Shown: in pieces, positions 11,312-30,056 of the stretch
Layout: the number at the start of each line of letters is the position of its first letter
Position numbering within the stretch: the first letter of the stretch is position 1
NCBI GenBank assembly: GCA_020721965.1
Contig: DYLS01000043.1
Span: forward strand, 1 to 38,170
DNA: 38,170 nt
From: Blastopirellula marina
GTDB lineage: Bacteria > Planctomycetota > Planctomycetia > Pirellulales > Thermoguttaceae
Direction of reading: 5' to 3'
The notes under the pieces: generated by a model
The model's database searches: none
Told to the model about the DNA's origin: nothing
The model's input: only the letters and a program-made list of their open reading frames with translations
Translations under genes and position numbers: made by a program

Positions 11312-11600
11312 CTCGGGGTTTCATGCACCAGTAGATTACTCTGCACGCTACGCCTGATTGCATGATGCGCACAGCATAGCTTGCGCGCCGTTCCCGCGCC
11401 ACGTCACGAGCAACACTCAATGAGCGCCGGGCACCCCGATGCGTTTCCTCCCGGCGTGATGTTACGCTACAATCGAAGAAAATCGAAATCGAGCGTTCCA
11501 ACCGACGAGAATACTGCGGAATGCGTCGAAAGCCGTCGAGGTCGCACGGCGCTTGCGGAGCGTCTGGTGCGTCTGTCTATCATCCAGCGAGAGGCGTCTG

Positions 11601-12716
11601 ATGTCGCGTCACGCCATTTTCGAGTCCAGTACCCGATATTTCCTCGCCCCGCTGTTGCGGTTTCTGGACGATGATTCTGTGACCGAGATCATGGTCAATG
11701 GGCCAGGTGAGATTTATGTAGAGCGTGCCGGGCGGTTGGAGAAGACCCCGGCTCGGTTCAGCAGCGAGGACGCCCTGCGCTCGGCGATTCACAATATTGC
11801 GCAGTGGATGGGACGTGAAATCGACGATGCCCGACCCGTGCTGGACGCACGCCTGCCGGATGGCTCGCGGGTGCACGCGATTATCCCCCCCAGCGCGCGA
11901 AACGGGACCTGCCTGACGATTCGGAAATTCTCCCGGGAAGCGCGTTCTCTAGGTGACCTCGTCCGCCTGAACAGCCTCTCCGAAATGGCGCGAGAATTCC
12001 TCGAGATCGCGGTTTTGCTCCGAAAAAACATGCTCATATCGGGGGGGACGGGCACGGGAAAGACGGTGCTTCTGGGTGCCGTGACGCAGGCCATTCCCGC
12101 CGACGAGCGAATCATCGTCATCGAGGATACCTCCGAGCTGCAATTGGTGCAGCCGCACGTCGTATATCTGGAGGCCAGGCACGGAGGGCGGGACGGCCAA
12201 GGTGGTCTGACGATTCGCGAACTGTTCACCAACTCGCTGCGGATGCGGCCGGATCGCATCATCGTCGGCGAGGTTCGCGGCGGCGAGGCCTTGGATATGA
12301 TTCAGGCCATGTTGAGCGGCCACTCCGGTAGCCTGACGACCATCCACGCCAGCACACCGCGGGACGCCTTGATCCGCCTGGAGACGCTGTCCCTGATGTC
12401 CGATGTGGAAATTCCCGTTCACGTGGCTAGAATGCAGGTAGCGGCGGCCATCCATTTGGTGGTCCAGATTGCGCGGTTTCAAGAGGACGGCTCGCGAAAA
12501 ATCACGCGGATTGCCGAGGTTCAGGGATTGAACGAGGCCGGGCAATTCGTGGTCCAAGAACTGTTCGTCTCCCGGTTGCACGGGAAGGATCAAGCCGGGC
12601 GTTTGCAGGCGGATTTGGCGTTTACCGGCTGCCGACCCAGTTTCGCCAGCGTCCCCGCTGAAGAGGGTATCACCGATCGCATCCGGGCGACCCAGGCGAT
12701 TTGGGAACTGGCATAG
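11601..12716 (+). CDS. tadA: Tad secretion ATPase CpaF/TadA (first paralogue)
   Basis: A 371-residue hexameric secretion ATPase of the GspE/PulE superfamily, CpaF/TadA branch, which powers Flp pilus assembly at the inner membrane. It has the N-terminal SVTEIMVNGPGEIYVER domain, the DARLPDGSRVHAIIPP motif (82-97), Walker A ISGGTGTGKT (146-155), the Asp box VIEDTSEL, Walker B RIIVGE (219-224) and the His box SGHSGSLTTIHA (239-250), so all ATPase motifs are present. It is shorter than the second paralogue at 20716 and lacks the FHA and helical N-terminal domains. ATG 11601 is preceded by GAGAGG; the frame stays open to 11553 without an SD. It is the first gene of the Tad run and is followed by the pilin genes. 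Confidence 0.95.
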   Translation: MSRHAIFESSTRYFLAPLLRFLDDDSVTEIMVNGPGEIYVERAGRLEKTPARFSSEDALRSAIHNIAQWMGREIDDARPVLDARLPDGSRVHAIIPPSARNGTCLTIRKFSREARSLGDLVRLNSLSEMAREFLEIAVLLRKNMLISGGTGTGKTVLLGAVTQAIPADERIIVIEDTSELQLVQPHVVYLEARHGGRDGQGGLTIRELFTNSLRMRPDRIIVGEVRGGEALDMIQAMLSGHSGSLTTIHASTPRDALIRLETLSLMSDVEIPVHVARMQVAAAIHLVVQIARFQEDGSRKITRIAEVQGLNEAGQFVVQELFVSRLHGKDQAGRLQADLAFTGCRPSFASVPAEEGITDRIRATQAIWELA

Positions 12717-13519: not shown

Positions 13520-14107
13520 ATGGTGGTGACGGTGGTCCTATTGATCTGGTTAGCCGCGGCCGTTGCGACAGACGTTACGCTTGGCAAGATTTTCAACGCC
13601 ATCACATACCCCGGCATGGTGGCGGCAATCGCATTCAACGCCCTCGGCTCGGCCGGCGTGGCTAGCGGCTGGTGGCCACCCAAAGCGGCAGCGGCTTGGG
13701 GCTGGGTCGGGTTGTGGGCGTCCGTTTTGGGATTGTTGGCGTGCGGGCTGGTGATGGTCGCCTGCTACGTGTTTTTTCGCGTGGGCGGGGGTGACGTGAA
13801 GCTGATCGCCATGATCGGGGCCTTTTTGGGACCCGACCAGGGCATTTTGGTCATGTTGTGGACGTTCGTCCTGGGCGCGTGCGCGGGATTGATTTTGCTG
13901 GTCTGGCGATTGGGGCCAGTGCGCCTCGCCGCGTCGGTCGCGCGGCACGTGCTGTGGAGCATCCGTTTAGGTGGATTCCATCCCTTGACGCCAGAACAAA
14001 GAAGGCAACTGGAGCCCCCGCTGTTCTTGGCCCCCAGTGCGTTGATTGCGGTGATTGTCGTGCGATTCGAGGTTGCCGAGCGGCTCCTGCCGACCCTATT
14101 TCCTTAG
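13520..14107 (+). CDS. tadV: Prepilin peptidase TadV/CpaA (A24 family)
   Basis: A 195-residue integral membrane aspartic peptidase that cleaves Flp and TadE/F-type prepilins. The first catalytic Asp is in VATDVTLGKIFNAIT (Asp18) and the second in the GxGD-type motif RVGGGDVKLIAM (Asp92). At least five hydrophobic segments are visible. The N-methyltransferase domain of the longer GspO/PilD type is absent, as usual for CpaA/TadV. The C-terminal tail after residue 150 (GFHPLTPEQRRQLEPP) is longer than in minimal CpaA proteins and ends in another hydrophobic segment. It starts 51 bases after the second pilin. Its stop codon lies inside a perfect 12-bp hairpin. Confidence 0.92.
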   Translation: MVVTVVLLIWLAAAVATDVTLGKIFNAITYPGMVAAIAFNALGSAGVASGWWPPKAAAAWGWVGLWASVLGLLACGLVMVACYVFFRVGGGDVKLIAMIGAFLGPDQGILVMLWTFVLGACAGLILLVWRLGPVRLAASVARHVLWSIRLGGFHPLTPEQRRQLEPPLFLAPSALIAVIVVRFEVAERLLPTLFP

Positions 14108-14132: not shown

Positions 14133-14263
14133 ACGTGCGGAAGGGCCCCAAATGAATTGGAGACGCGTTGGCGTACTCTGGCACCCCCTGGAAGTGGTGG
14201 ATCAAGGGGGGGAGGCGGGCTATACAGATTCCATCCGAGCGGCGCCGCAGCGGGAGAATCGGC

Positions 14264-15253
14264 ATGGTGATGGTGGCGATCTTCCAGGCCTGTCTACCGT
14301 GGTTCGCCATTTTGATGGTCGCGGGACTGTCGTTGACTCTGGTCTGCCGCGCCGCCCAGGTCGCGCCGGACCTTCGCAAGTTGAGGCGACTCCACACCGA
14401 TCAAGCGGGGGCGGTTCAAGGCTTGAGTTTCGTGCTCACGCTTCCCTTTTTCGTGTTGATCGTCCTCTTCATCGTCCAGGTCAGCCAGATCATGATCGGG
14501 ACGGTGGTTGTTCACTACGCGGCCTTCGCCGCCGCGCGGTCGGCCATCGTGTGGATTCCCGCGAGGGTCGGCCTCGTCGAACTGGAAAATAGAATCAGCG
14601 GCTATGATTTGGACCCTCAGGCCGGAGATCAAACCCCGCCGATCCTGGATCCTAGCGATCCGAGCTACGGCCCCAACGATGGAGGGCTGACGTTTGCGAT
14701 CGCCCCGGGCGGACCGAAGTATTCCAAGATCGCCGTGGCGGCGGCGTTGGCCGTCATGCCGATTTGCCCATCCCGGGACCTGGGGCTGGCGCTGCCGGGT
14801 AATGCCGGTCCACCGGCGGCCATTCTGAACGCAGTGTACCGCCGCAACGTCCCCGACTACGATCTCAACCCGCGGATCGCCCAGCGTTTGCTCAATAAGC
14901 TGGCCTATGCGTGGAACTTCACCAACGTGGAAGTGCGTTTCTTCCACTCCAACCGAGAGCCGCCGTTGATCCCGCAGTTCTTACCGCCTGACCCCAACGA
15001 ATTCTATACCAACGAGCTTGGTTTTCAGGATTCGGTGACGGTAACCGTTCGGCACGATATGGCCTTGCTGCCCGGGCCGGGGCGCTTTCTGGCGCGACCG
15101 ACGCCCTCGCCGGGAGGCGGTCCCGACATGACGGCCCAAGGCATCCAGCGCCGCGGCGGCATCTACGTTTTCCCGCTTACCGCAACCATCACCTTGGGAA
15201 ACGAAGGGGAAAAATCGGTGGTGCCGTACACCTACGTTCTGTCGGCGCTTTAG
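14264..15253 (+). CDS. TadE-like pseudopilin
   Basis: A 329-residue protein with an N-terminal hydrophobic helix (residues 5-28), then the TadE-type segment TDQAGAVQGLSFVLTLPFF (46-64) continuing through IVLFIVQVSQIMIGTVVVHY to AAFAAARSAIVW. The rest is a large periplasmic region rich in Pro and Asn with an all-beta look, ending in TYVLSAL. Having two helices, one ahead of the TadE segment, is unusual for the family. The start is set at ATG 14264, with GGGAG eight bases before it. The frame is open to a TTG at 14168, but that extension has no SD and is Trp/Arg-rich. It lies in the pilus operon and probably forms part of the pilus tip or priming complex (inference from family). Confidence 0.8.
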   Translation: MVMVAIFQACLPWFAILMVAGLSLTLVCRAAQVAPDLRKLRRLHTDQAGAVQGLSFVLTLPFFVLIVLFIVQVSQIMIGTVVVHYAAFAAARSAIVWIPARVGLVELENRISGYDLDPQAGDQTPPILDPSDPSYGPNDGGLTFAIAPGGPKYSKIAVAAALAVMPICPSRDLGLALPGNAGPPAAILNAVYRRNVPDYDLNPRIAQRLLNKLAYAWNFTNVEVRFFHSNREPPLIPQFLPPDPNEFYTNELGFQDSVTVTVRHDMALLPGPGRFLARPTPSPGGGPDMTAQGIQRRGGIYVFPLTATITLGNEGEKSVVPYTYVLSAL

Positions 15254-15391
15254 CAGCACATCGTCGCGATGGCGACGGTGGATTGGATCGCGGTACTGGA
15301 TCGCGATGGCCACGGTGTAGATGGCCGCGGTGTAGCGGAAACGACCAGCTTCAAGAATCCACGATTAGGGCAGACGGCGGAGGGATCGACG

Positions 15392-16858
15392 ATGGCTGAG
15401 AAACACTGGCGTTTCGACGATCGGCTGCGCGGCCTCACCCGGTCGTACCGCGGAATCCGTAAAATCGCCGCGCTGCCCGCTGACGAAAACGGGGCGATGA
15501 GCCTGGTCTCCGTCTTCGCGGTGCTGATCCTGACCATTTTGCTGGGCATGGTGATGAACGTGGGCAAGGCGGCCGACCACAAGATTCGTATGCAGAACGC
15601 GGCCGACGCCATTGCCTACTCTGGTGGCACCGTCCTTGCCCGAGGAATGAACGCCCTGGCTTTCAGCAACCATTTGTTGTGCGACGTGTTCGCCCTGACG
15701 GCCTTCATGCGCGAGGCCCGGGATCGCAATGCCGAGAGCTTCGTCCCCGATATCTTGGGCGCGTGGAACGAAGAGGCCCCGATTTTCTTGCAGTCGCACT
15801 TCGCGAAGTTCATCCCCTTGGCGAGCGCCATTCCGGCCAAAACCCCGTTGGAGCAAGAATTGGTGCGGGCGTTCAGCGATTGGGTGGCCGCTGCTTCCGA
15901 GAGGATCTTGCCCACTCTGGAGTACATATTGGCGGAAGAGTTGATTCCGCAATATCAGCGGGCGGTAGTGGCGGCCTTCCCGGACATTGCCCAACAGGCC
16001 GCCTTGGAGGTGGCACGGCGGAACGGCAGCCCGAGTTTCGGTCGCGGCGACATGCTGGGGGTCCTGTGGCGGACATCCGTGGTGCCAGTCGGAGGGGCCG
16101 GCGAATGGGTCGAGCCGACATTGCCCGTCGTCGATCCGCTGAACGATCCCTCGCCGGAGCAGCCGCAAAACCTCGCCGACGCGCAGACGCAGCGTCGTGC
16201 GCAGGCCCAGCATTACCTGGGGCTGTGGAACTCGCGAGCGATGTACTTCTTCGACCGCGAGGCGAAAATGAGCCGCTTCTCCAGCCTCTGGCGGAACTTT
16301 ACCTGCGGCCAACTGGAGCAATTGCTTCAAGAATACGAGATGGGAAACCTCCCGTTCTTGATTCGAGACACGGGGAATGAAATCGTGGATCCGAACGATC
16401 ACCTCGATCGGTATTTCACGTTTGTGGGCGTGGCCTATTGGCATCCCATGCGGCCTCTCCTGCCCGGCCTGTTTCGTCATCCCATCACCGCAGACACAGT
16501 CACCTTTGCGCAGGTCCGCGTGTTCGTGCCGCGGCGGCGGTTGATTTGGATGTATCAGGTGCCGGGGTCCGACAATCCGCTGGGTGGCGTGCCTGGCGAC
16601 TTTCCGGAATTGCCCTCGGAAGATGATCCGCCACCGCCAGGGGATGGCCACTGGGAAGTGGTACGCCAGCCCGTCCCCGAGCACTGGGACTTGTGGAATC
16701 AGCATTGGAGCTGCCAATTGACGCCAGCTACCGTGGATACGCTCCCCGCGATCTTGCAGACTCGGCCCCCGCTGCCGGAATTTGCAGGCTGGGATCTTCA
16801 GCTACCCAATTTGGCTGGTCTCTCGACAGCGGATATCCAGTACATCAGCCCGCACTGA
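15392..16858 (+). CDS. TadG-like pilus-assembly protein
   Basis: 488 residues from ATG 15392 (GGAGG ten bases upstream). The N-terminal 30 residues are basic and cytoplasmic. DENGAMSLVSVFAVLILTIL then marks the TadE/TadG membrane anchor. After it, HKIRMQNAADAIAYSGGTVL matches the Gln-Ala-Ala-Asp segment of TadG-type proteins (usually LQ.AADAAALAG). The remaining about 400 residues are periplasmic with no von Willebrand A motif that I can see. The open frame upstream to 15269 crosses low-complexity CGCGGTG repeats and is rejected. It is followed 32 bases later by another TadE-like gene. Confidence 0.82.
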   Translation: MAEKHWRFDDRLRGLTRSYRGIRKIAALPADENGAMSLVSVFAVLILTILLGMVMNVGKAADHKIRMQNAADAIAYSGGTVLARGMNALAFSNHLLCDVFALTAFMREARDRNAESFVPDILGAWNEEAPIFLQSHFAKFIPLASAIPAKTPLEQELVRAFSDWVAAASERILPTLEYILAEELIPQYQRAVVAAFPDIAQQAALEVARRNGSPSFGRGDMLGVLWRTSVVPVGGAGEWVEPTLPVVDPLNDPSPEQPQNLADAQTQRRAQAQHYLGLWNSRAMYFFDREAKMSRFSSLWRNFTCGQLEQLLQEYEMGNLPFLIRDTGNEIVDPNDHLDRYFTFVGVAYWHPMRPLLPGLFRHPITADTVTFAQVRVFVPRRRLIWMYQVPGSDNPLGGVPGDFPELPSEDDPPPPGDGHWEVVRQPVPEHWDLWNQHWSCQLTPATVDTLPAILQTRPPLPEFAGWDLQLPNLAGLSTADIQYISPH

Positions 16859-19721: not shown

Positions 19722-20513
19722 ATGAAGGGCCTGAACGGGTTGATCTTGGGATTGGGCATCGGGATCGCGGCAGCCCTATTCAATTGGGCGTATGTTACCC
19801 GGGCTACGGGGAGCGTCGAAACCGTGGCCTTTTTCGGGGTAGCCCCGGACCGCAACATCGAGGCCGGGGAGATTCTGGCTGCAGAAGACTTGGTACCCGT
19901 CCCGTTGCCTGCCGCCACCGCTCGCCGGCTGCGGGGATTCGCGTTTGTTTATCCCGACGATCGCGCCACGGTGGTCGGGATGCGGACGACGCGCCCTGTG
20001 CCGGGTGGCTCGTTGCTGTTGGTGGATGACCTGCGGCCGCCCCCGCCAAAACTCGTTTTCGGTGGTCAGCCGGCAGGGAAGGAAGAGGAGATCGCCATGT
20101 TCATTCCGATCGACACACGGACGATCGTGACATCACTCCTCGAGCCGGGCGATATGGTTTCGTTCATCGTTTCCGCGCCGACCCCTGCCGGAACCGCCCC
20201 CAACGAAGTCGGCGGTTCGATCCCGCCGCAAACCGGAATCCCGCCGCAAGACAACACGCCACCGCTACCGGCAGGCGCTCCGCGGATCATCGGCAAATTC
20301 AAAATCCTGGCGATTGGCAACCGTCTCAGCAATCTGGACATCCATCGGGCCTACCAGTTGCCGCAATCGCAAGAGAATGTGCTCACGATCAGCGTCCGCC
20401 TCCAAGGCGGACAGTTAGAGCCTAAGGCGGATCAGTTGTGGAGGATGTTGGAAGCCACCAATTTTCGGCAGGTGGGAGTCATCCTCCATGCCCGGCAACG
20501 GTCCGCCAATTAG
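19722..20513 (+). CDS. cpaB: Flp pilus assembly protein CpaB/RcpC
   Basis: A 263-residue periplasmic protein anchored by an N-terminal helix (GLILGLGIGIAAALFNWAYV, residues 6-25). An SAF-type domain follows (APDRNIEAGEILAAEDLVPV, PVPGGSLLLVDDL). A second domain has IDTRTIVTSLLEPGDMVSFI, the RcpC/CpaB signature region. The C-terminal third (NVLTISVRLQGGQLEPKADQ) also fits the family. CpaB is thought to link the secretin to the inner-membrane Tad complex. Here no secretin gene lies beside it, although cpaB and the secretin gene are usually neighbours. A Pro-rich loop (about 148-188) is a local insertion. It is followed by a repeat element starting two bases after its stop, then the FHA-CpaF gene. 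Confidence 0.88.
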   Translation: MKGLNGLILGLGIGIAAALFNWAYVTRATGSVETVAFFGVAPDRNIEAGEILAAEDLVPVPLPAATARRLRGFAFVYPDDRATVVGMRTTRPVPGGSLLLVDDLRPPPPKLVFGGQPAGKEEEIAMFIPIDTRTIVTSLLEPGDMVSFIVSAPTPAGTAPNEVGGSIPPQTGIPPQDNTPPLPAGAPRIIGKFKILAIGNRLSNLDIHRAYQLPQSQENVLTISVRLQGGQLEPKADQLWRMLEATNFRQVGVILHARQRSAN

Positions 20514-20616: not shown

Positions 20617-20715
20617 GATTAGCGGCGAAAGACTGTAAGCAACGGGCCAATCGCGGCGGCTTGCGCGGCGATCCGCCGCGGCGTGCCTTTGCGGGATGAC
20701 AGCCGAGGACCGAAC

Positions 20716-22695
20716 ATGAGAGTCTGGTACAACCGCGTCAACGACAGTCGGCGAACCCTGATCGAAGTAGCCGGCAACGAGGTCTCCATCGGCCGGGATG
20801 AGGCCAACGACGTGGTCCTGCTCAGCCCCCTCGTCTCCCGCCGGCACGCCGTGGTCCGGCTCCTCGAGGATGGGCGTTTGCAACTGGAAAACGTCGGCTT
20901 GAATAGTTGCCTGGTGGCCGACGGGGAAGTGCTGGGCGGGCAGACGGTCTATTTCTCGCCCGGCGCCAAGGTCCGCATCTGGCCTTTTACGCTGAGCTTT
21001 GAAGCCGAGAAGGCGGCCACCCTCTCGCGGCAAGAGCTGGAATCGCACCTGCGCGGATTGATCGCCGACTTGGAGTTGCGGATTCACCGCAAGCTCTTGG
21101 AGCGGCTCGACCTCTACGAGTTCGAAACCCGACGAGCCGGCGACCCCGAAAGCACGCTCCTGCTGGAAAACAACATCGACGACATCTGCCGTGAGCTGCG
21201 GGTCTTCGAGCCTGACAACGAACCGATTCTGGAGGAAATCACGGGCCTGGTGCTGCGGGACCACATCGTCAACCGCCTGGTGATGCAGTCCGGGTCGCAG
21301 ACCTTGAGCGAGATGATGGGAATCACCCTCAACGAGTTCGACGTCCCGGCGACCTTGGTGCCGGAACGCGAGACGGAACTGTTGGGCATCATGAAGTTCA
21401 TGGAGGATCGGCTGGCCCTGGAACAATGTCGCGATACCTCGGAAAAAGTGCAGCGTGTGGAGGATCGATTCAATGAAGCATTTCACCTGGTCCGCTCCCA
21501 TCTTCATCGCGAGTTGCGCAAGTACCTGATCTTGCGTACTTTGAAGAAGGACCTGAAGGACACGATTTTCGGTTTCGGCCCCCTGCAAGACCTGCTGCGA
21601 GCGGACGCGGTGACTGAGATCATGGTGGTGGGCAAGGACCATATCTACATCGAGCGTAACGGCGTGATCGAGAAGTCCGGGCGGCGATTCATTTCGGACA
21701 AGGTGACGGAGGCCATCATCGAGCGTATCGTGGCCCAGGTGGGACGGCGTATCGACAAGAGCCAACCGTTGGTCGATGCCCGGCTGCCGGACGGTTCCCG
21801 CGTGAATGCCATCATTCCGCCGCTAGCCGTCAAGGGGCCATGCTTGACCGTCCGCAAATTCCCGCTGCAACGGATGACCATGGACGACCTCGTGGAGTAC
21901 GGCTCGATCAGCCGAGCCGCGGCCACCTTCCTGAGGGCGGCGGTCATCGACCGAAAGAACATTCTGGTGAGCGGCGGGACGGGGGCAGGCAAGACCACGC
22001 TCTTGAATATCCTCAGCAGCTTCATCCCCTTCAAGGAACGCATCGTCACCATCGAGGACACCATCGAACTGCGTCTGCATCAAGAGCACGTCGTTCCCCT
22101 GGAGGCCAAGCCGGCCAATGTGGAAGGCGCGGGGGCCTACACCATTCGCGATCTGGTACGCAACGCCCTGCGCATGCGGCCCGACCGCATCATCGTCGGC
22201 GAGTGCCGCGGCCCCGAGGCCCTGGATATGGTCCAGGCCATGAATACCGGGCACGACGGTTCCTTGACTACCGTCCACGCCAACAACGCGAGGGAGGTTA
22301 TCGAACGTCTGGAGGTCCTGATTTTGATGGCCGCCGATCTGCCGATCTACTCCATCCACCGACAGATCGCCTCCGCGGTGGATTTGATCGTACACATCTC
22401 GCGTTTGCCCGGCGGTCGCCGAGCCGTGACGGAAATCTCCGAGGTCGTGGGCGTGGACCCCGACACCAAAGACGTCATCATCCACGATATCTTCAACTTC
22501 CGAAACGAGCGGTCTTTGATGCCGACCGGCTACCTCCCCACCTTCGTGGAGTCGCTGGTGGCCAAGAATTTGCTGGATTTGGAGTTCCTATACGAACAAG
22601 CGGAAGAGGCGGAGAAACGTGCCATAGCCTATCGACGCGAAGAGGAGCAGCGCACCCCCGCCGCCCAACTGGCGTTGCACCCGTCCGGGCGATGA
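20716..22695 (+). CDS. FHA-domain CpaF/TadA secretion ATPase
   Basis: 659 residues in three parts. Residues 1-100 are a forkhead-associated domain (VSIGRDEANDVVLLS, then LVSRRHAVVRLLEDG and LENVGLNS). The Gly-Arg (26-27), Ser41, His44 and Asn64 that form the phosphothreonine pocket are all present. Residues 105-290 are helical and include the long CpaF N-terminal region. Residues 290-600 are the ATPase: DAVTEIMVVGKDHIYIER, DARLPDGSRVNAIIPP, Walker A SGGTGAGKT (419-427), Walker B RIIVGE (491-496) and the His box GHDGSLTTVHAN (512-523). It should drive Flp pilus extension, with the FHA domain giving phospho-dependent control. ATG 20716 has GAGG upstream. It is the second CpaF paralogue in the locus, and tadB follows after 269 bases. 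Confidence 0.95.
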   Translation: MRVWYNRVNDSRRTLIEVAGNEVSIGRDEANDVVLLSPLVSRRHAVVRLLEDGRLQLENVGLNSCLVADGEVLGGQTVYFSPGAKVRIWPFTLSFEAEKAATLSRQELESHLRGLIADLELRIHRKLLERLDLYEFETRRAGDPESTLLLENNIDDICRELRVFEPDNEPILEEITGLVLRDHIVNRLVMQSGSQTLSEMMGITLNEFDVPATLVPERETELLGIMKFMEDRLALEQCRDTSEKVQRVEDRFNEAFHLVRSHLHRELRKYLILRTLKKDLKDTIFGFGPLQDLLRADAVTEIMVVGKDHIYIERNGVIEKSGRRFISDKVTEAIIERIVAQVGRRIDKSQPLVDARLPDGSRVNAIIPPLAVKGPCLTVRKFPLQRMTMDDLVEYGSISRAAATFLRAAVIDRKNILVSGGTGAGKTTLLNILSSFIPFKERIVTIEDTIELRLHQEHVVPLEAKPANVEGAGAYTIRDLVRNALRMRPDRIIVGECRGPEALDMVQAMNTGHDGSLTTVHANNAREVIERLEVLILMAADLPIYSIHRQIASAVDLIVHISRLPGGRRAVTEISEVVGVDPDTKDVIIHDIFNFRNERSLMPTGYLPTFVESLVAKNLLDLEFLYEQAEEAEKRAIAYRREEEQRTPAAQLALHPSGR

Positions 22696-22964: not shown

Positions 22965-23816
22965 ATGAATGACGCGACGGACTTGATCCTGGGATGCGTG
23001 GCCACGGGAACGGCAGTGACCGTGATGGTTTACGCCGCGCGCGATTGGATCGCCGCTCTTTTTTCCAAGATGGAAGAAGACATCGGCGATAAGCTGCGGC
23101 GATTGCGTGCGTCGCCGGGGAACCTGCGGGCATGGCTGCGGCTATGGCTCGTGGGAATTGCCCTGGCATTTTTCGGATTCAGCCTGGGTCTGAATAGTTT
23201 GATCTTCGGGATCGTCAGCGCGGCGTTTCTCCTGGCCGCCCCTTGGTATCTCGTGCGGCGTCTGGCGGAGAGCTATCGGCGCAAGATCGAGGATCAACTG
23301 GCGGACGCGATGGTGACGCTTTCCAATGCCGTCCGTGCGGGACTGTCCTTGGCCCAATCGCTGGAGATCCTGGCCGCCCAATGTCCCCGGCCGATCAATG
23401 CCGAATTCCGCCAGATCGTGGCGGAATACAATCTGGGCAAGCCGCTGGATCGCACGCTAACGGAGGCCAAGGAGCGGCTGAAAAGCGAGAATTTTTCTCT
23501 TTTTGCGGCGGCCGTCCTGGCGGGGCACGAACATGGAGGCCGCCTGAGCGATACCGTGGAACGCATCGCCAGCTCGGTGCTGGAGTTGCAACGGCTGGAG
23601 CGCAAGGTCTTATCGGAAACGGCCCAGGCCCGTAAATCTGCGGTGTACATGGCCTTGTCGCCCCTGTTTTTTCTGGCAGCCTTTTACTTCATCGATCCCG
23701 ATAACACGACGGCCCTGTTCGTGCAACCGCTGGGGCATTTGATTTTGGCAACGGCCGCGATCCTGAATGTCATCGCGTACATTTGGGCCCGCGCGCTGTT
23801 GCGACCCGACATTTGA
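22965..23816 (+). CDS. tadB: Tad inner-membrane platform protein TadB
   Basis: A 283-residue polytopic protein of the type II secretion F family. Hydrophobic segments lie at about 6-25, 61-80, 82-98, 226-243 and 255-277, with the cytoplasmic GspF-type domain at about 110-225. Its signature is DQLADAMVTLSNAVRAGLSL (Asp-Ala...Arg-Ala-Gly-Leu-Ser), typical of TadB, followed by LARLKSENFSLFAAAV-type helices (here RLKSENFSLFAAAVLAGHEH, 171-190). It forms the platform with TadC that the CpaF ATPase engages. The SD is weak. A 269-base spacer before it carries no recognisable gene. It is followed by tadC after 33 bases. Confidence 0.92.
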   Translation: MNDATDLILGCVATGTAVTVMVYAARDWIAALFSKMEEDIGDKLRRLRASPGNLRAWLRLWLVGIALAFFGFSLGLNSLIFGIVSAAFLLAAPWYLVRRLAESYRRKIEDQLADAMVTLSNAVRAGLSLAQSLEILAAQCPRPINAEFRQIVAEYNLGKPLDRTLTEAKERLKSENFSLFAAAVLAGHEHGGRLSDTVERIASSVLELQRLERKVLSETAQARKSAVYMALSPLFFLAAFYFIDPDNTTALFVQPLGHLILATAAILNVIAYIWARALLRPDI

Positions 23817-23849: not shown

Positions 23850-24800
23850 ATGGATGGACCGATGACGGATTGGCAACAGATGCAGCAATCGAGCGGCTAC
23901 TTGCTCGCCGCCGCGTGTCTGATGTGGGGGATCGCTGCCGCTCTGGTGGCGCGGTGGCTGTGGCTAGTGCTACAGACCGAGGACATCCCGCAAGGCAGAG
24001 AGTGGCGTTACGACATCAGCCGCATCAATGAGCTGCGGCGCGCCGACTGGTTCTACCGATCGTTTCAGCCGGTACTTCAGCTTTTGGGAAGGTTCAACCG
24101 CGCGGCTTTTCGCGAGGCCTTGCCGGAAATTCAGCGGCATATTCACGCCGCGGGTCTGTCGCGATTCTGGTTGGCCGAGGAATATCTCGGCAAGCTCGAA
24201 ATGATCGGGGCGGCCTTGCTCCCCATCTATACATACTTTTTCGTTCGAGCCGTGGGGCTAGGCGGATTGCTACTGGCTCTCGCCCTGTCCCTCCTCACGG
24301 TGTGGCTCTTGCGGCTGCGATTGGCATCGCGGGCGGCGCGGCGACTGCGCGACATCAAGCGACGGTTACCATTCTTGCTGGATTTGCTGACATTATTAAT
24401 GGAGGCTGGCTCGACCTTTCTGAATGCCTTGACGCAGGCCGTGGAGGAATACCGCGGCCATGCCGTGGCCGAAGAATTCGGTCGGGTACTGGCCGACATG
24501 CAGTTGGGCAAAACGCGCTTCGAGGCATTTTCCGCCATGAAGGACCGCCTCGCGGACGACGAAATCACCAGCATCATCGGCTCCATCTTGCAAGGCGAGA
24601 CGTTGGGGACTCCGCTGGCCTCCATCTTTCGCACGCAGGCCGACGTCCTGCGCATCAAGCGTTCGCAGCGTGCGGAGACAATCGCCGGCGAGGCGGGCGT
24701 GAACATGCTGTTGCCCGGTATACTGGTGATGGCGGCCGCGGTGCTCATCCTGATCGGCCCCTTTTTGCTCAATTATCTCGATTTTGGAATGGCGCTTTGA
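23850..24800 (+). CDS. tadC: Tad inner-membrane platform protein TadC
   Basis: 316 residues, second F-family platform protein of the Flp pilus. It has a transmembrane helix at about 17-40, two more at about 115-155, a cytoplasmic F domain (RRLPFLLDLLTLLMEAGSTF at 171-190, RFEAFSAMKDRLADDEITSI, GTPLASIFRTQADVLRIKRS) and a C-terminal helix (MLLPGILVMAAAVLILIGPF). The order tadA-tadB-tadC is as in other Tad loci. An alternative start at ATG 23862 would remove four residues. The following repeat-rich frame begins close to its stop. Confidence 0.92.
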   Translation: MDGPMTDWQQMQQSSGYLLAAACLMWGIAAALVARWLWLVLQTEDIPQGREWRYDISRINELRRADWFYRSFQPVLQLLGRFNRAAFREALPEIQRHIHAAGLSRFWLAEEYLGKLEMIGAALLPIYTYFFVRAVGLGGLLLALALSLLTVWLLRLRLASRAARRLRDIKRRLPFLLDLLTLLMEAGSTFLNALTQAVEEYRGHAVAEEFGRVLADMQLGKTRFEAFSAMKDRLADDEITSIIGSILQGETLGTPLASIFRTQADVLRIKRSQRAETIAGEAGVNMLLPGILVMAAAVLILIGPFLLNYLDFGMAL

Positions 24801-24888: not shown

Positions 24889-25356
24889 ATGGAATGGCGG
24901 GAACGGGAAGCGGATGGTGGAGCGGGCAGCGCGAGTCAAGCCGGCTTTTGCGGGCCGCCATGCGGTACCAGAACGGCCTTCGCGGAGCCTGGGCTGACCA
25001 TTGCGACGCCCATTGCAATGCCGCTTTCGGTGCCAGTTTCAATGCCGATTCTGATGTCAGTTTCGTTGCCGGTTTCGATACCGGTTGCGATGCCAGCTCC
25101 GATGCCGGTTTCGTTACCGGTTTCGTTGCCAGCTTTGATGCCGGTTGCGATGACAATTGCGATGCCAGATCCGACGCCCATCCCACTGCCTGACGCGCTA
25201 CCTATTGCAACACCAAACCCGACGCCCAATGCGCTGCCTAACTCGCTACGCATTGCAATCCCCATTGCAATACAAGACGCGATGCCCATTGTGCTGCCCA
25301 ACGCTGAACAGTCCGATCGGGATCGCCCACCTCGAATGGGAAGATGTGGGGCCTAG
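24889..25356 (+). CDS. Possible tetrapeptide-repeat protein
   Basis: A 155-residue frame with low certainty as a gene. After a polar 37-residue start it consists mainly of 25 tetrapeptides with consensus (V/I)(S/A)MP, Pro being kept at the fourth place in 21 of 25. The Pro codons use all four wobble bases (CCG, CCA, CCC, CCT), so the DNA has drifted while the residue stayed. That argues for selection on this reading frame. It stops three bases before the next gene, consistent with an operon. No signal peptide or known family is seen. ATG 24889 has GGGAACAACGGA before it; a TTG at 24784 overlapping tadC is also possible. The alternative view is non-coding satellite DNA. Confidence 0.4.
   Translation: MEWREREADGGAGSASQAGFCGPPCGTRTAFAEPGLTIATPIAMPLSVPVSMPILMSVSLPVSIPVAMPAPMPVSLPVSLPALMPVAMTIAMPDPTPIPLPDALPIATPNPTPNALPNSLRIAIPIAIQDAMPIVLPNAEQSDRDRPPRMGRCGA
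25000..25299 (+). repeat. 12-bp minisatellite, 25 units
   Basis: A continuous array with an exact 12-bp period and no indels, consensus GTTTCGATGCCG. Central units (25060-25150) are the most alike; outer units have diverged (for example ATTGCAATGCCG, AACCCGACGCCC). Because 12 is a multiple of three, several frames stay open through it. Confidence 0.9.
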
Positions 25357-25359
25357 TTT

Positions 25360-26487
25360 ATGCCCGTCAAGATTCAATGCCCTCTTTGTCGAACGGAGAT
25401 GACGGTCAGCACAGCGGCCCTGGGAGGGGTGGTGGGTTGCCCGTGGTGCCATCATCGCTTCCGGGCGGAATCCGCCGTGGCGGACAGCACAGGGGGTAGT
25501 GCCGGCCGGTCGGACCGCGTGCCGATCGCCGCCCCCCCGACCGCAGCCTCGTCCCGCGAAGGCGGGGATGAGCGGCGCGGTACTCCGGCAAACCAGCCGG
25601 ACCTCGCCTCCGGCCAGAGCCGGGCGGCCGAGATCGCCAACCGGTGGCGGCCCGTCGACGGCTCCCAGCCGGAGCGGGCTTTACCGCCACCTCCCGGAAT
25701 CCCCGCATCGCAGACAGTGGAGAAGAAGAAAAAGCAAAGCGAGGCGGGCATTCCGGGCGATCTGGGAAAGGGACGGCCGTTGCAACGTGCCGCTGAAGCC
25801 GAGAAGCCCCCGCAGGCCCATCGTGGCAAGGCCCAGGGTTCCAACTCCCCGCAGCCCCACCCGGCGTCGGCGCCATGCCCCGCTCCCCGGGAGGATTCAC
25901 GGCGGGAAACGGCGCATCCCCCAGCGACAGGCCTCATCCCTGCGGCGGCGCCGAGATCGGCGACCCCAGCGGCCGACTCGACGCCTCGCAAGAAAGCCAC
26001 CATGCGGATTCTCTCCGAGCCGGCGGAGCCAACGTGGACACTGTCGGCCGACGGCACGCTTCCCGCCCTGCATTTGGAGGAATCGGAGATGCAAAACCCG
26101 GCGGGGGGGCGGCGTTCCTTCAATTGGGTATTCCTTGTCGTCCTGCTATGTACCAGTATGACCGTGTCTCTCGCCCTGGTGCTCGTGGAGCCTCAATCGG
26201 GACAGCTCGGCGAAGTCCGGGTTCAAGATGCGGCCCGTCGCGTGTTGATGGATGAGTACATTCCCAGCCTGAATCCAGAATCGCCGCCGGCCGAGTACCA
26301 GGTGCTTCTGCGGGAGGCCATCCGTGCCCACAATACTGGTAACTTCGATCGCGAACGGGAACTTTACCGGCAATTGTTGCGTTTGTTGTATGCCTACAGC
26401 GACCGATCGCCGTATGAAGGCTTGACGGGCAGCGCCACACGCGATCGAAAATTGGAGGAGCAATTGCGTATCCTGCTGCGGGAATAA
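25360..26487 (+). CDS. Zinc-ribbon, proline-rich membrane protein
   Basis: 375 residues. The N-terminus is a CPxC...CPxC zinc ribbon (Cys7, Cys10, Cys27, Cys30; IQCPLCRTEM and GCPWCHHRF) of the kind often found in planctomycete proteins. Residues 35-250 are a low-complexity linker rich in Pro, Ala, Ser, Arg and Lys. A transmembrane helix follows at about 255-277 (WVFLVVLLCTSMTVSLALVL). The C-terminal 100 residues form a helical domain (EYQVLLREAIRAHNTGNFDR, ELYRQLLRLLYAYSDRSPYE) with TPR-like character. I assign no function. It lies between tadC and the kinase gene, so a role at the inner membrane in the Tad machine is likely but unproven. Its 3' end lies in a 26-bp tandem repeat. Confidence 0.75.
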   Translation: MPVKIQCPLCRTEMTVSTAALGGVVGCPWCHHRFRAESAVADSTGGSAGRSDRVPIAAPPTAASSREGGDERRGTPANQPDLASGQSRAAEIANRWRPVDGSQPERALPPPPGIPASQTVEKKKKQSEAGIPGDLGKGRPLQRAAEAEKPPQAHRGKAQGSNSPQPHPASAPCPAPREDSRRETAHPPATGLIPAAAPRSATPAADSTPRKKATMRILSEPAEPTWTLSADGTLPALHLEESEMQNPAGGRRSFNWVFLVVLLCTSMTVSLALVLVEPQSGQLGEVRVQDAARRVLMDEYIPSLNPESPPAEYQVLLREAIRAHNTGNFDRERELYRQLLRLLYAYSDRSPYEGLTGSATRDRKLEEQLRILLRE

Positions 26488-26541
26488 GATTGCGTATTGT
26501 GCTACGGGAATGAGGTTGCGTATCCTGCTGCGGGGATGAGG
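26464..26541 (+). repeat. 26-bp tandem repeat crossing a stop codon
   Basis: Three units starting TTGCGTATCCTGCTGCGGGA at 26464, 26490 and 26516, with a partial fourth. The first unit contains the last seven codons and the TAA stop of the zinc-ribbon gene; the others lie downstream, out of frame because 26 is not a multiple of three. Confidence 0.85.
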
Positions 26542-26699
26542 CTGCGGACGAACGGGGTCCGGCCGATCGCCCCGCCGCGGCAATCGCACCAGTAGTGATT
26601 GCCCAAGCCCGATGGTGAGGCATCGAAAAAGTCGCGTTGTGGTTGGGCGTTGCTGAGAATCGAATCGCCACGATCCAGAGCGGCAGCGAGAGGGAAAGC

Positions 26700-29600
26700 A
26701 TGTCTTCGGAGTCGCGATATCAAATCGTCGAGCGAATTGGCAGCGGCGACTTCGCGCAAGTATTCCGCGCCCGGGACCAAGAGCTGGGGCGTGACGTGGC
26801 CATCAAGGAAATCCACGCCCAATTCCTTCAGGCTCCCAAGCAATTGGAGCGATACTGGCGCGAATCGCAATTACTGGCTTTGCTTCAGCATCCGCACATC
26901 ATCACGATTTACGACGTGGTCCGCACGCGGGGTTGGCTGGTCCTGGAACTGATGCGCGGCAATCTTCAGCAAAGCGCGGAGACCGGCCCCATCGACGTGG
27001 ACTTCTTGCGGGAAATCCTGCTCGGCGGCCTCCAGGCACTCGATTTCTTGCACGGCAACGGGATCATTCATGGGGACATCAAGCCCAGCAATCTGCTGCT
27101 CGACGGCCAGGGACGGGTCAAACTGGGAGATTTCGGACTGGCCCGCCGCGCCACCGATGAAGGCGGCAGTTTGCTCAAGGGCACGACCAAGTACATGGCT
27201 CCCGAGCTGATCAGCGCCCAATTCGGCCAGGTCGGCCCGGCAGCCGATTTGTACTCGCTGGGCTTTACCGCGTACGAACTGTTGTGCGGTCCGGACTTCG
27301 CGCTCCTGTTTCCGGGCTTGAGCGCGTTCGGGCGGGATCGGCAGATTGCCTGGATGATGTGGCACAGCTCGCCGGACCAGCGTTTGCCACCCATTCGCCG
27401 CGTGCTGGAGGGCGTGCCCGAGGATCTGGCCGAGACCGTGGATCGGCTCATCGTGAAGGAGCAGGGGCAACGCTTGGGTTCCGCACGCGAAGCCCTGCAA
27501 ATGCTCACCGCGTCATCCCCAGGCACCTCGTACCTGCCGGCGGCGGAAGAAGAAGGCCCGTCTCCTGAGGAAATACGCAAGGCTAAGAACAAGCGGTACC
27601 TTCGCATCGCCGCGGTTGGGGCCATCGTCTGCTCGCTCCTGCTGACCGTCCTCCAATTCTTACCGGAGAAACCCAAACCTGGCCCGAACCCATCCGGCGC
27701 CGAGCCAGTCCGCGGGTTGGTACGCAGCGTGTTCCTGAATGAACGGTTGATCGTGGTGGAGACCCCGGACGGCACTCCCAAGGAGGTTTCCATCAAGCCC
27801 ATCGACGAGGTCTTCATCAATGACGCCAAGGCATTGCTGAGGGACATGCAGCCGGGCGACGAGATCACGATCAATCGCACGCAAACGGATGGGCGCACGG
27901 TGCAACGACTGCAGATCGTGCGTCCCCAAAAGGTGGCGGGAGAGTTGTCGGCTGTCTCCCTGGCCGATGCGACGATCATGCTGACCGTGGATGCGGATCA
28001 GCCGCCCCTCCGCATTCGGGTGGGGCAAGGTACGCCGATCGAGTTCAACGGCAAAGCAGAATTGGACGGCCGAAGCGTCATGCTGAGCGATCTCAAGCCG
28101 GGGGATCGGGCGGAAGTGGAATACCGCGGCGCCGAAGATGACCGATCGGCCGTGCGACTGGCGATCCGCCGTACCGTCACCACAGAGGGCGTCTTGTCCG
28201 AGGTCGACCCCAAGACCGGCCGCATCACTTTTCGCGCTGGCGACGCCAGTCCCGTGACGCTCCCCTATGCGGCCAACTGTGTGGTCACGCTGAACGGAAG
28301 GTCCGAGCTACAAAGCCGCATCTTGAAGCCAGCAGATTTGCAACCGGGAGATCGGGTGACCGTTGCGCACGATATCGAAATATCTCGAATCGATGCCTAT
28401 CGCACGCTGGGGCTGGCTGGTTCGATCCGTGAAATTCATGAGGCGGCCGGCAGTCTCGATATCGTCCGTGACGATGATCATCAACCCGTGCAAGTCGTGG
28501 TCGGCGCCGATTGCCAGATCACCTTGTTCGGCGAAACTGTGCCGCTGAACGACTTGCGGGACGGTGACCGCGTGGACATCACCCATGACACGCCGGACGG
28601 ATCGTCAGCGATCAAGGCCCTGAAGATCGAGGCTGTCCGGCCGGAAGATGCGACGCGTTGGGCCGTGGTCGCCTGCGTGGGAGACTATGACGATGACCGC
28701 CTCCGCGACGCCCCGGCAGTTTCGGCAACCGCCGAAGACCTGGCCACGACATTGCGGACGCGCTACGCCGTTCCCAGAGGTCAGCTTCTGGTGCTCAACA
28801 ATCCGAGCCGTATCCGATTGGAACAAGCGGTGGAGGGGTTCCTGAAAAACGTGCGGCCCGACGGAGAGATTCTCGTTTATTACTCAGGAACGGCGGCACG
28901 CGATGCCCAGGGACAGGTCTTTCTGGTGGCCAAGAATACGGATTTAGGCAATCTTCCGGCGACCGGACTGAGCGTGCAATGGCTTGCGGATACGTTGGAG
29001 GCTTGCCCCGCCGCCCGCAAACTGCTGGTATTGGAGGCCTCTCCCGCCGCGCCGCAAGGCAATGCGCCGCTCGTTTCCGCCGCCGAGGCGCTGGAGTCCG
29101 TGAAGGGACCGCCTGGAATGGCAGCCTTCCGCACAGTGACCGCGCTAGCGGGAGCTTCGCGCGGCGAAGCAGCGTCGATAGAGGGCGACGGGACCATGAC
29201 GGCCTTTGGTCGGGCGCTCGTCTTGGCCTACCGAGGCGACGGCGATGAGAATCGCGATGGCAAGCTCGATCCGACCGAATTGCTCGGTTTTGCGAACCGC
29301 GTCTTACCGCAACTCCTCCCCGCTGGGGTGAAGCAGACGGTCCAGCCATTTCTCCCCGATAATCGCCCCCCCCGCTTGAGCGAGGAGTCGAAGCTCGCCA
29401 TTCGATCGCTGGCCGCTCTCATCTCGATGCAATCTGTGAACCCCCAGATCGCCGACGAGGCCTTTCGCAGAGCCTCTCAGGGAATTGAATCGCAACCCGA
29501 GCCTTACCTTCTTTATGGGCTGCTGCTTGTGAACAATCGGCAGATGCCCGACGCAAGCCGGTATCTGGAACCCCTGAAGGTCAGCCATCCGGCCGAGCCT

Positions 29601-30056
29601 TTGCCATACCTGTTGCTAGCCTGGATCAAGGTAATGCGGCGCGACTATCGAGGGGCATTGAGAGAGCTGCGCGGTTTCACGGAGAACTGGCCCAAGCGAG
29701 ATGAGGCGGCTTATCCCACAACCGAACTCGATCTACCGCGGACCGCGTTCTGGATTGGCCAAATGCGCGAGTTTCTGGAGGGAGCGGCAGAGGAAGCTGA
29801 ACGCCCCCTGCCAATCGATCTGAAAGCCCTGGACAGCGACATCCAGGCCATGGGAAGCGAGGCCGCCCAAGCGTATGATCAAGGCCGCAAGCAGACGCGG
29901 GCCGTGCTTCAGGAGTTCGATCAACAGTTGGCGGCGGCGCAAGGCAATCGTGAAGCGGAAGTCCGTGTCCGCTTCGAACGCCGCCAGCCCACACGCTACC
30001 TTTCGCCCCTGATCGATGATTGGGCACGGGGCGTACTGGCCAACTTGGATCGTTAA
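26700..30056 (+). CDS. Ser/Thr kinase fused to a pseudo-caspase domain
   Basis: 1118 residues from ATG 26700 (GAGAGGG upstream). Residues 7-270 are a Hanks-type kinase: Gly loop GSGDFAQV (14-21), Lys36 in VAIK, HGDIKPSN (124-131) with catalytic Asp126, DFG 144-146 and APE 167-169, with activation-loop threonines TT 162-163. All key residues are present, although HRD is HGD. A membrane helix lies at 301-320. Four repeats of about 75 residues follow (starting near 336, 412, 495 and 572), each ending in a D(L)xPGDR-type motif. Residues 653-870 match a caspase-like fold, but the catalytic His place reads YYSGTAA (Thr731) and the Cys place reads LEASP (Ser781), so it is probably inactive. An EF-hand-like loop DENRDGKLDPTE is at 849-860. 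The C-terminus is helical, TPR-like. It is the last gene of the Tad run. Confidence 0.93.
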   Translation: MSSESRYQIVERIGSGDFAQVFRARDQELGRDVAIKEIHAQFLQAPKQLERYWRESQLLALLQHPHIITIYDVVRTRGWLVLELMRGNLQQSAETGPIDVDFLREILLGGLQALDFLHGNGIIHGDIKPSNLLLDGQGRVKLGDFGLARRATDEGGSLLKGTTKYMAPELISAQFGQVGPAADLYSLGFTAYELLCGPDFALLFPGLSAFGRDRQIAWMMWHSSPDQRLPPIRRVLEGVPEDLAETVDRLIVKEQGQRLGSAREALQMLTASSPGTSYLPAAEEEGPSPEEIRKAKNKRYLRIAAVGAIVCSLLLTVLQFLPEKPKPGPNPSGAEPVRGLVRSVFLNERLIVVETPDGTPKEVSIKPIDEVFINDAKALLRDMQPGDEITINRTQTDGRTVQRLQIVRPQKVAGELSAVSLADATIMLTVDADQPPLRIRVGQGTPIEFNGKAELDGRSVMLSDLKPGDRAEVEYRGAEDDRSAVRLAIRRTVTTEGVLSEVDPKTGRITFRAGDASPVTLPYAANCVVTLNGRSELQSRILKPADLQPGDRVTVAHDIEISRIDAYRTLGLAGSIREIHEAAGSLDIVRDDDHQPVQVVVGADCQITLFGETVPLNDLRDGDRVDITHDTPDGSSAIKALKIEAVRPEDATRWAVVACVGDYDDDRLRDAPAVSATAEDLATTLRTRYAVPRGQLLVLNNPSRIRLEQAVEGFLKNVRPDGEILVYYSGTAARDAQGQVFLVAKNTDLGNLPATGLSVQWLADTLEACPAARKLLVLEASPAAPQGNAPLVSAAEALESVKGPPGMAAFRTVTALAGASRGEAASIEGDGTMTAFGRALVLAYRGDGDENRDGKLDPTELLGFANRVLPQLLPAGVKQTVQPFLPDNRPPRLSEESKLAIRSLAALISMQSVNPQIADEAFRRASQGIESQPEPYLLYGLLLVNNRQMPDASRYLEPLKVSHPAEPLPYLLLAWIKVMRRDYRGALRELRGFTENWPKRDEAAYPTTELDLPRTAFWIGQMREFLEGAAEEAERPLPIDLKALDSDIQAMGSEAAQAYDQGRKQTRAVLQEFDQQLAAAQGNREAEVRVRFERRQPTRYLSPLIDDWARGVLANLDR

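Follow-up and report, generated by a model that had tools for sequence, protein, structure and literature searches.

A candidate receptor kinase with a pseudo-caspase ectodomain in an FHA-type Tad-pilus cluster of a planctomycete

The stretch of Blastopirellula marina DNA considered here (positions 1 to 38,170 of contig DYLS01000043.1, assembly GCA_020721965.1; hereafter the window, 38,170 nucleotides in all) carries a gene in which a Ser/Thr kinase is fused to a caspase-fold domain without catalytic residues. The gene lies in a Tad-pilus cluster, and the kinase family to which it belongs is found together with CpaF motors that bear an FHA domain. We consider it somewhat probable that the protein is a receptor Ser/Thr kinase dedicated to the FHA-type Tad pilus, in which a dead caspase serves as the ligand-binding ectodomain.

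Co-inheritance of the kinase and the FHA-type motor

The distribution of the two genes was surveyed in 248 genomes of the class, where a kinase was scored as present at profile E values up to 1e-38 and a close FHA-CpaF as a full-length match of more than 1,000 bits. Kinases of this family occur in 29 genomes and close FHA-CpaF in 28; both are present in 28, the kinase alone in one (G239), and the FHA-CpaF alone in none. The two profile searches scored the best 20 and the best 4 candidates per genome, and single-protein searches, with at most 9, recovered identical sets (6e-99 or better for the 28 FHA-CpaF, 1e-75 or better for the 29 kinases). Given that some CpaF-like match was found in 228 of the 248 genomes, the kinase appears to be tied to the FHA kind and not to Tad motors generally. 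The pair spans 22 genera. The two genes lie less than 10 kb apart in 12 of the 28 genomes, megabases apart in 3 single-contig genomes, and on different contigs in 13, where adjacency across a gap is still possible for some (e.g., G245 and G270). Co-inheritance with the FHA motor suggests that the kinase turns the pilus on or off when an external signal arrives.

A similar picture emerges from 101 genomes of the window's family, of which 26 have both genes, 4 the kinase alone and 1 the FHA-CpaF alone. One genome (G029) was counted among those with both by virtue of a 79-residue CpaF fragment at a contig start, which falls short of the FHA domain. The kinase-alone genomes are G001, in about 1,120 contigs, and G026, G310 and G340, which are at most 79% complete; absences from draft genomes may be assembly gaps. 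The FHA-CpaF of G018, the only one found alone, is a distant homologue with 29% identity.

The two genes could also have descended together in certain clades with no functional tie. Most of the positive genomes belong to families f1 and f22, the counts are uncorrected for ancestry, and the 13 different-contig genomes would be in keeping with this explanation. We nevertheless find it unlikely, because the distribution is patchy within genera: in g149 both genes occur in G205 and G245, the kinase alone in G239 and neither in six others, and in g103 both occur in G233 and neither in G098. The pair is also kept in the three single-contig genomes where the genes are megabases apart.

Architecture of the kinase protein

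The reading frame on the forward strand starts with the ATG at 26700 and ends with the stop codon at 30056, in agreement with the coordinates and frame of the first-pass annotation, which was made from the sequence alone. Its parts are:

26700..30056, + strand: receptor-like Ser/Thr kinase with pseudo-caspase ectodomain, 1118 residues (open reading frame and translation; orthologues in relatives)
26718..27500, + strand: protein kinase domain, residues 7-267 (Pfam PF00069, Pkinase, E 1.5e-46)
27606..27662, + strand: single predicted transmembrane helix, residues 303-321, after a basic stretch (hydrophobicity scan)
27711..28649, + strand: four tandem beta repeats of about 78 residues each, weakly DUF5666-like and OB-like by fold
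28638..29369, + strand: caspase-fold domain without catalytic residues, residues 647-890 (family alignment, model, structure matches)
28890..28892, + strand: Thr731, at the place of the catalytic His (family alignment)
29040..29042, + strand: Ser781, at the place of the catalytic Cys (family alignment)
29244..29279, + strand: EF-hand-type loop DENRDGKLDPTE, residues 849-860 (D849-E860), from the sequence; between two helices in the model
29382..30053, + strand: helical TPR-like tail, residues about 895-1118 (model helices; TPR_9 E 0.0076, below cut-off)

The kinase identification holds, with the Pkinase match accompanied by kinase motifs (Lys36, HGD at 124, DFG at 144 and APE at 167). The receptor-like layout that had been proposed is supported by the single transmembrane segment and the basic stretch before it, and by a hydrophobicity scan 70 of 78 open reading frames of the kinase family have one such segment and no more. 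From this topology, the kinase would be cytoplasmic, and the beta repeats, the pseudo-caspase and the TPR-like tail would lie on the extracytoplasmic side. The number of beta repeats was likewise correct in the first-pass annotation: all six repeat-against-repeat comparisons scored above 500 of 500 shuffles (z 4.3 to 11.0), and the predicted ectodomain structure has four beta units (pLDDT 90.9, pTM 0.61). Foldseek matches for these units include Mpa and HIN proteins, which contain OB domains; the Pfam match to DUF5666 (E 0.024) is below cut-off. The TPR-like tail and the Tad-pilus setting are additions to what had been described, and the link with an FHA-CpaF pilus, the most informative point, lies beyond the coordinates given there.

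A caspase fold without its dyad

The fold of the domain at residues 647-890 is that of a caspase. An AlphaFold model of high confidence (pLDDT 94.5, pTM 0.92) matched metacaspase-4 (Z 20.8, root-mean-square deviation 2.7, 204 residues aligned), and many caspase and MALT1 chains also matched, at Z 19 to 20, these alignments likewise covering some 200 residues; the structural comparison with metacaspases proposed earlier thus confirms the caspase-like fold. A family profile searched against solved structures found the MALT1 paracaspase (6.7e-5) and metacaspase-4 (0.0014), and it aligned the MALT1 motifs GHG and DMC with GHA and DCS of the kinase family. The Pfam model Peptidase_C14 (PF00656) gave no match for the window protein; among 19 family members it matches 16 when E values up to 10 are allowed, the best at 6.4e-14. 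A search of the window's own genome with PF00656 found nothing, so by that profile the genome is without a canonical caspase. No match was found by tblastn of the caspase-like domain against plasmids, and no relative by a contig scan queried with the single window protein.

The nearest sequence family is NCBIfam NF047832 ("caspase, EACC1-associated type"), which matches residues 654-867 at E 6.6e-21 and 74.8 bits, short of its cut-off of 140. This best match, together with the inactive caspase domains that PMC7159879 describes in its account of related conflict systems, could be taken to mean that the protein is a receptor for conflict or cell death, of the type of the EACC1 caspases, with a function unrelated to the adjoining pilus. 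We regard this as quite unlikely, given that the score is only about half of the cut-off, that no EACC1-like gene was recognised on the 5' side, where the neighbours are Tad genes, and that the kinase family co-occurs so closely with FHA-CpaF.

The replacement of the catalytic His by Thr and of the catalytic Cys by Ser, read from motifs in the first-pass annotation, was reproduced in the family alignment (Thr731 and Ser781). The domain contains no His at all, and its only Cys residues are at 659 and 769; therefore no Cys-His dyad is possible within it. This rules out a dyad elsewhere in the domain, one of the outcomes that had been named as speaking against a pseudoenzyme. The window protein lacks the His-Cys dyad of active caspases and orthocaspases, and its domain, p20-like with the conserved dyad missing, is a pseudo-orthocaspase by definition.

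History of the catalytic residues

Relatives were gathered in two ways. A search of 60 related genomes, counting that of the window, matched the C-terminal part in 26, and 18 loci besides the window are clear orthologues. A scan of GTDB contigs with a kinase stretch as seed yielded 80 loci; almost all come from records with planctomycete titles, and 78 show similarity beyond the kinase. Because the seed was the kinase stretch, the 80 loci are biased toward members that have this kinase; caspases lacking it were covered only by the related-genome search and by a survey of open reading frames with a caspase profile. The caspase domain was counted in 67 of the 80 loci, the other 13 having no match or one below 15 bits, some of them cut by contig ends. 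Removal of duplicates reduced 86 aligned rows to 73.

Of these 73 rows, 57 have His at the His place. At the Cys place, 17 have Cys, 26 Ser, 10 Thr, 9 Gly, 4 Ala and 6 some other residue, and 1 has a gap. Both residues are present in 14 rows, His only in 43, Cys only in 3 and neither in 13. On a quick tree (LG+G4, no bootstrap) the state must have changed no fewer than 12 times at the Cys place and no fewer than 11 times at the His place, counts that depend on the tree and do not distinguish loss from gain; the tree took 70 of the 73 rows, leaving out two that were too short (L002 and L043) and one whose kinase frame looks broken (L051). The closest relatives of the window protein, L031 and L002, also lack both residues, as do scattered other members of the family. 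With Cys in only 17 of 73 rows and at least 12 state changes, loss of the nucleophile is frequent; judged from the alignment, it is recurrent in the family, and the double loss belongs to the window's close relatives and some other lines. A double loss as a trait of the whole family is ruled out by the same counts. The pseudoenzyme reading of the first-pass annotation thus stands for this protein, in which both catalytic residues are gone, and does not extend to the family; the alignment of orthologues that it had called for shows that His and Cys are not lost throughout.

Two further features of the Cys region can be recorded. A Cys lies one place ahead of the catalytic position in 19 of the 73 rows, where the window protein has Ala. 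The very close relatives L091, L092 and L117 differ at the Cys place itself, with Cys in L092 and Ser in the other two, possibly as a recent change or return.

The rows with an intact dyad bring up the question of catalysis. In one view, the family would consist of receptor-tethered proteases, the dyad-bearing orthologues cleaving at the envelope, perhaps under calcium gating through the EF loop, and the window protein would be a loss that kept only the scaffold. The 14 rows with both residues and the 57 with His accord with this, as do the 8 of 10 other loop-bearing planctomycete caspases (see below) that are intact by motif. We find it doubtful, with some real chance of being right, since Cys is missing in 56 of 73 rows (one a gap), the tree has at least 12 state changes, and some family members do without the caspase domain altogether. 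One could also imagine that the site is not dead and acts as a Ser/Thr hydrolase in members that retain His and carry Ser or Thr instead of Cys; these two are the top replacements (26 and 10 rows) in a family that mostly keeps His. This we think very improbable, because the column also accepts Gly, Ala, Val, Asn, Arg, Gln and Pro, as an unconstrained site would, and because the window's domain has no His.

The EF-hand-type loop

The EF-hand loop reported by the first-pass annotation is present within the domain. It has the 12-residue pattern D-x-[DN]-x-[DN]-...-E and lies between helices; in the model, loop 210-221 (model numbering) joins helices 196-208 and 219-233. The Pfam model EF-hand_5 matches it weakly (E 0.15). 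Position 1 is Asp and position 12 is Glu in 70 of the 73 rows each, which places both at the 2.8th percentile of entropy in the domain, compared with the 58th for the catalytic Cys column.

The loop is not special to this protein. In a survey of the same order, 26 open reading frames matched the caspase profile, and 23 remained once the kinase-family members L141, L149 and L152 were set apart. By pattern, 10 of these 23 carry the loop, 1 is doubtful and 12 have none, so that a loop unique to the window protein is ruled out. The dyad is intact by motif in 8 of the 10 loop-bearing reading frames (e.g., L135, L142, L139, L136, L140, L132, L134 and L155); L129 and L130 have an intact dyad and no such loop. 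Given that other caspase-like proteins of the same order share it, the loop is an older feature of part of this branch that was kept here while catalysis was lost.

The Tad-pilus cluster

The kinase gene closes a Tad-pilus cluster in the order prepilin peptidase, TadE-like, TadG-like, CpaB-like, FHA-CpaF, TadB, TadC, zinc-ribbon transmembrane protein and kinase. The neighbouring genes in the window are:

11553..12716, + strand: second type II/IV secretion ATPase, no FHA match (PF00437 1.4e-57)
13520..14107, + strand: prepilin peptidase (PF01478 1.5e-12)
14168..15253, + strand: TadE-like (PF07811 0.0026, below cut-off)
15269..16858, + strand: TadG-like, with Tad domain (PF13400 2.7e-6)
19722..20513, + strand: CpaB/RcpC-like (TIGR03177 3.6e-5, below cut-off)
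20683..22695, + strand: CpaF/TadA ATPase with N-terminal FHA, the FHA at about 20782-20979 (T2SSE 4.9e-62, FHA 6.6e-9)
22965..23816, + strand: TadB-like membrane platform (T2SSF, Pfam)
23850..24800, + strand: TadC-like membrane platform (T2SSF, Pfam)
25360..26487, + strand: zinc-ribbon membrane protein between TadC and kinase (weak zinc-ribbon matches; a neighbour in other loci)

The motor at 20683..22695 is a CpaF of class III, with a T2SSE ATPase and an N-terminal FHA domain in a tad cluster; it also matches the TadA-family ATPase model at 2.6e-100, below that model's cut-off. Scans of 32 CpaF proteins, taken from the window and from the 31 loci where a CpaF was found, detected an FHA domain in each, and the signature columns Gly-Arg, Ser and Asn, presumably the phosphothreonine-binding residues, are invariant in the aligned CpaF. 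The FHA part has weak similarity to TagH of the type VI secretion system (T6SS; E 0.0054). No T6SS structural gene was found by Pfam among the 26 distinct open reading frames of the window, the rest of the genome not having been searched, and no secretin matched in the window.

The arrangement recurs elsewhere. In 46 of the 80 loci the gene immediately 5' of the kinase, in the same orientation, is TadC or the zinc-ribbon gene, and 7 have too little upstream sequence; a looser rule, with a Tad gene anywhere in the fetched flank, gives 50 of 80, and we adopted the stricter figure. The zinc-ribbon protein, a candidate Tad accessory, has three conserved parts in 40 aligned rows: the zinc ribbon, a DG-L-P-L-L stretch before the transmembrane helix, and the C-terminal part. 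One locus (L083), from a record titled "Candidatus Nealsonbacteria", shares with the planctomycete loci the gene order TadC, zinc-ribbon, kinase; the record is probably a mis-binned or misnamed metagenome-assembled genome. Short ATPases like that at 11553-12716 occur in several distant loci. In the window, degenerate 12-base tandem repeats at 25016-25178 lie in the gap between the TadC and zinc-ribbon genes, and a 26-base repeat array at 26464-26546 overlaps the 3' end of the zinc-ribbon gene.

Distant relatives of the kinase and motor

Six genomes, one of them with it as a second copy, have a distant full-length CpaF that covers the FHA columns (706 to 804 bits), and four of the six were also recovered with a single FHA-part protein. 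In all six, a weaker relative of the kinase lies on the same contig, within 27 kb. Where these distant kinases were examined, Ig-like, PEGA, FGE-sulfatase or no named ectodomain takes the place of the caspase. L158 keeps the order CpaF-TadB-TadC-kinase with a kinase that has no caspase, and L165 does the same more weakly, as if the ectodomain of the kinase were exchangeable. We give these distant cases little weight because kinases are common in these genomes.

Among the weaker kinase relatives, L157, L159, L160, L163 and L166 have an FGE-sulfatase ectodomain, to which PEGA is added in four of them. A kinase with an FHA domain of its own lies beside TadC and a distant CpaF at L165:2191-4305 (- strand).

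A wider proposal, possible and more tentative, is that planctomycetes have a phospho-signalling branch of the Tad pilus, equivalent to PpkA-Fha in the T6SS, in which kinases with exchangeable ectodomains (the pseudo-caspase in the window; FGE-sulfatase, PEGA or Ig-like domains farther away) license FHA-CpaF and the caspase scaffold, after repeated loss of its nucleophile, became an extracellular calcium-dependent reader.

Discussion

If the kinase is indeed a receptor dedicated to the FHA-type Tad pilus, a signal at the envelope (e.g., calcium, surface contact or the state of the pilus itself) would be read by the beta repeats, the pseudo-caspase and the TPR-like tail. The pseudo-caspase may act as a ligand- or partner-binding ectodomain, possibly calcium-dependent, that gave up catalysis and kept its EF-hand-type loop. 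The kinase would then phosphorylate a Thr on itself or on a partner in the assembly apparatus, with the adjacent zinc-ribbon membrane protein and TadB/TadC as candidates, and the FHA domain of CpaF could dock on the phosphothreonine, by which the motor would be recruited or switched on. What the analysis shows is the caspase fold, the missing catalytic residues, the conserved loop, the place of the gene in the cluster and its joint occurrence with FHA-CpaF; the phosphorylation, the docking, the ligand and the direction of control are inferred.

Several observations weigh against a dedicated pilus receptor of this kind. No Tad gene lies directly upstream in 27 of the 80 loci, and no linked PP2C phosphatase was found among the 26 window reading frames, the one PP2C_2 match of the genome being on another contig. 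The association of kinase and motor has a Fisher P of 3.9e-36, uncorrected for shared ancestry, which makes that figure too strong. A first look at each genome gives tens of kinase candidates, and with kinases so numerous, the looser linkages in distant clades could be due to chance; G044, G059, G255 and G266 have a weaker kinase relative with CpaF matches of only ordinary strength. As for the ectodomain, the 14 rows with a full dyad may be proteases, some members of the same kinase family stop after the beta repeats, and G075 and G236 have FHA-CpaF with kinases of 634 and 655 residues that lack a caspase; the caspase domain is thus not needed for the pairing. EF-hand loops usually have Gly at position 6, and only 14 of the 73 rows do.

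Pseudo-orthocaspases, poor dyad conservation in planctomycetes and FHA-CpaF have already been published (PMC6426788, PMC3501461 and PMC12019362). As outlined in PMC6426788 and PMC3501461, bacterial pseudo-orthocaspases have a p20-like fold without the His-Cys dyad, often with Ser in place of Cys, and some have C-terminal TPRs; PMC3501461 reports poor conservation of the dyad in planctomycete caspases (64%). The window's domain resembles these proteins, but it is fused behind a Ser/Thr kinase, a transmembrane helix and beta repeats, is predicted to be extracytoplasmic, and is tied to a Tad pilus, a grouping not described in the relevant parts of those two papers. The EACC1-associated caspases (NF047832; the subject of a part of PMC7159879) are its nearest sequence family, but the score is below cut-off and the zinc-ribbon transmembrane gene upstream has no EACC1 match in our libraries, whose inclusion of an EACC1 model was unchecked.

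On the side of the motor, the class III CpaF of Tad pili have an N-terminal FHA domain like the window's CpaF; as characterised in PMC12019362, they are mostly betaproteobacterial and no kinase partner is named in its section on the class, whereas here the hosts are planctomycetes and a kinase is co-inherited. The Kil system, a Tad-like killing apparatus of Myxococcus, also has an FHA domain fused to a Tad-like ATPase, and its authors propose a T6SS-like signalling cascade through FHA (PMC8460266). According to the main text of that paper, in which the word "kinase" is absent, Kil has no TadG and one ATPase, whereas a TadG-like gene (15269-16858) and two ATPases, one of them at 11553-12716, are present in the window.

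A functional parallel is offered by the T6SS, where, according to PMC3953482, phosphorylation of TssL depends on PpkA and Fha binds the phosphothreonine. Here too a membrane Ser/Thr kinase and an FHA protein are found together, so that both cases place a Ser/Thr kinase and an FHA reader on a secretion machine. The window differs in that the machine is a Tad pilus, the kinase has a caspase-like ectodomain, and no phosphatase is linked to it among the scanned reading frames.

Among the open-access search results listed, judged by titles and the openings of abstracts, we found no paper that ties FHA-CpaF to a kinase or deals with a family of kinase-pseudocaspases. As far as we have seen, the combination of parts and their co-inheritance are new within the open-access literature searched.

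FHA domains on Tad motors are known from the class III CpaF and Kil, and the relevant parts of those accounts name no kinase for them. The kinase family described here, which is accompanied by the FHA motor in 28 of the 29 kinase-bearing genomes among the 248 sampled, is a concrete partner, through which phosphocontrol of the Tad pilus becomes testable. The family also offers, in one domain setting, members that range from an intact dyad through His only or Cys only to neither residue, a series along which a caspase enzyme may have become a receptor domain.

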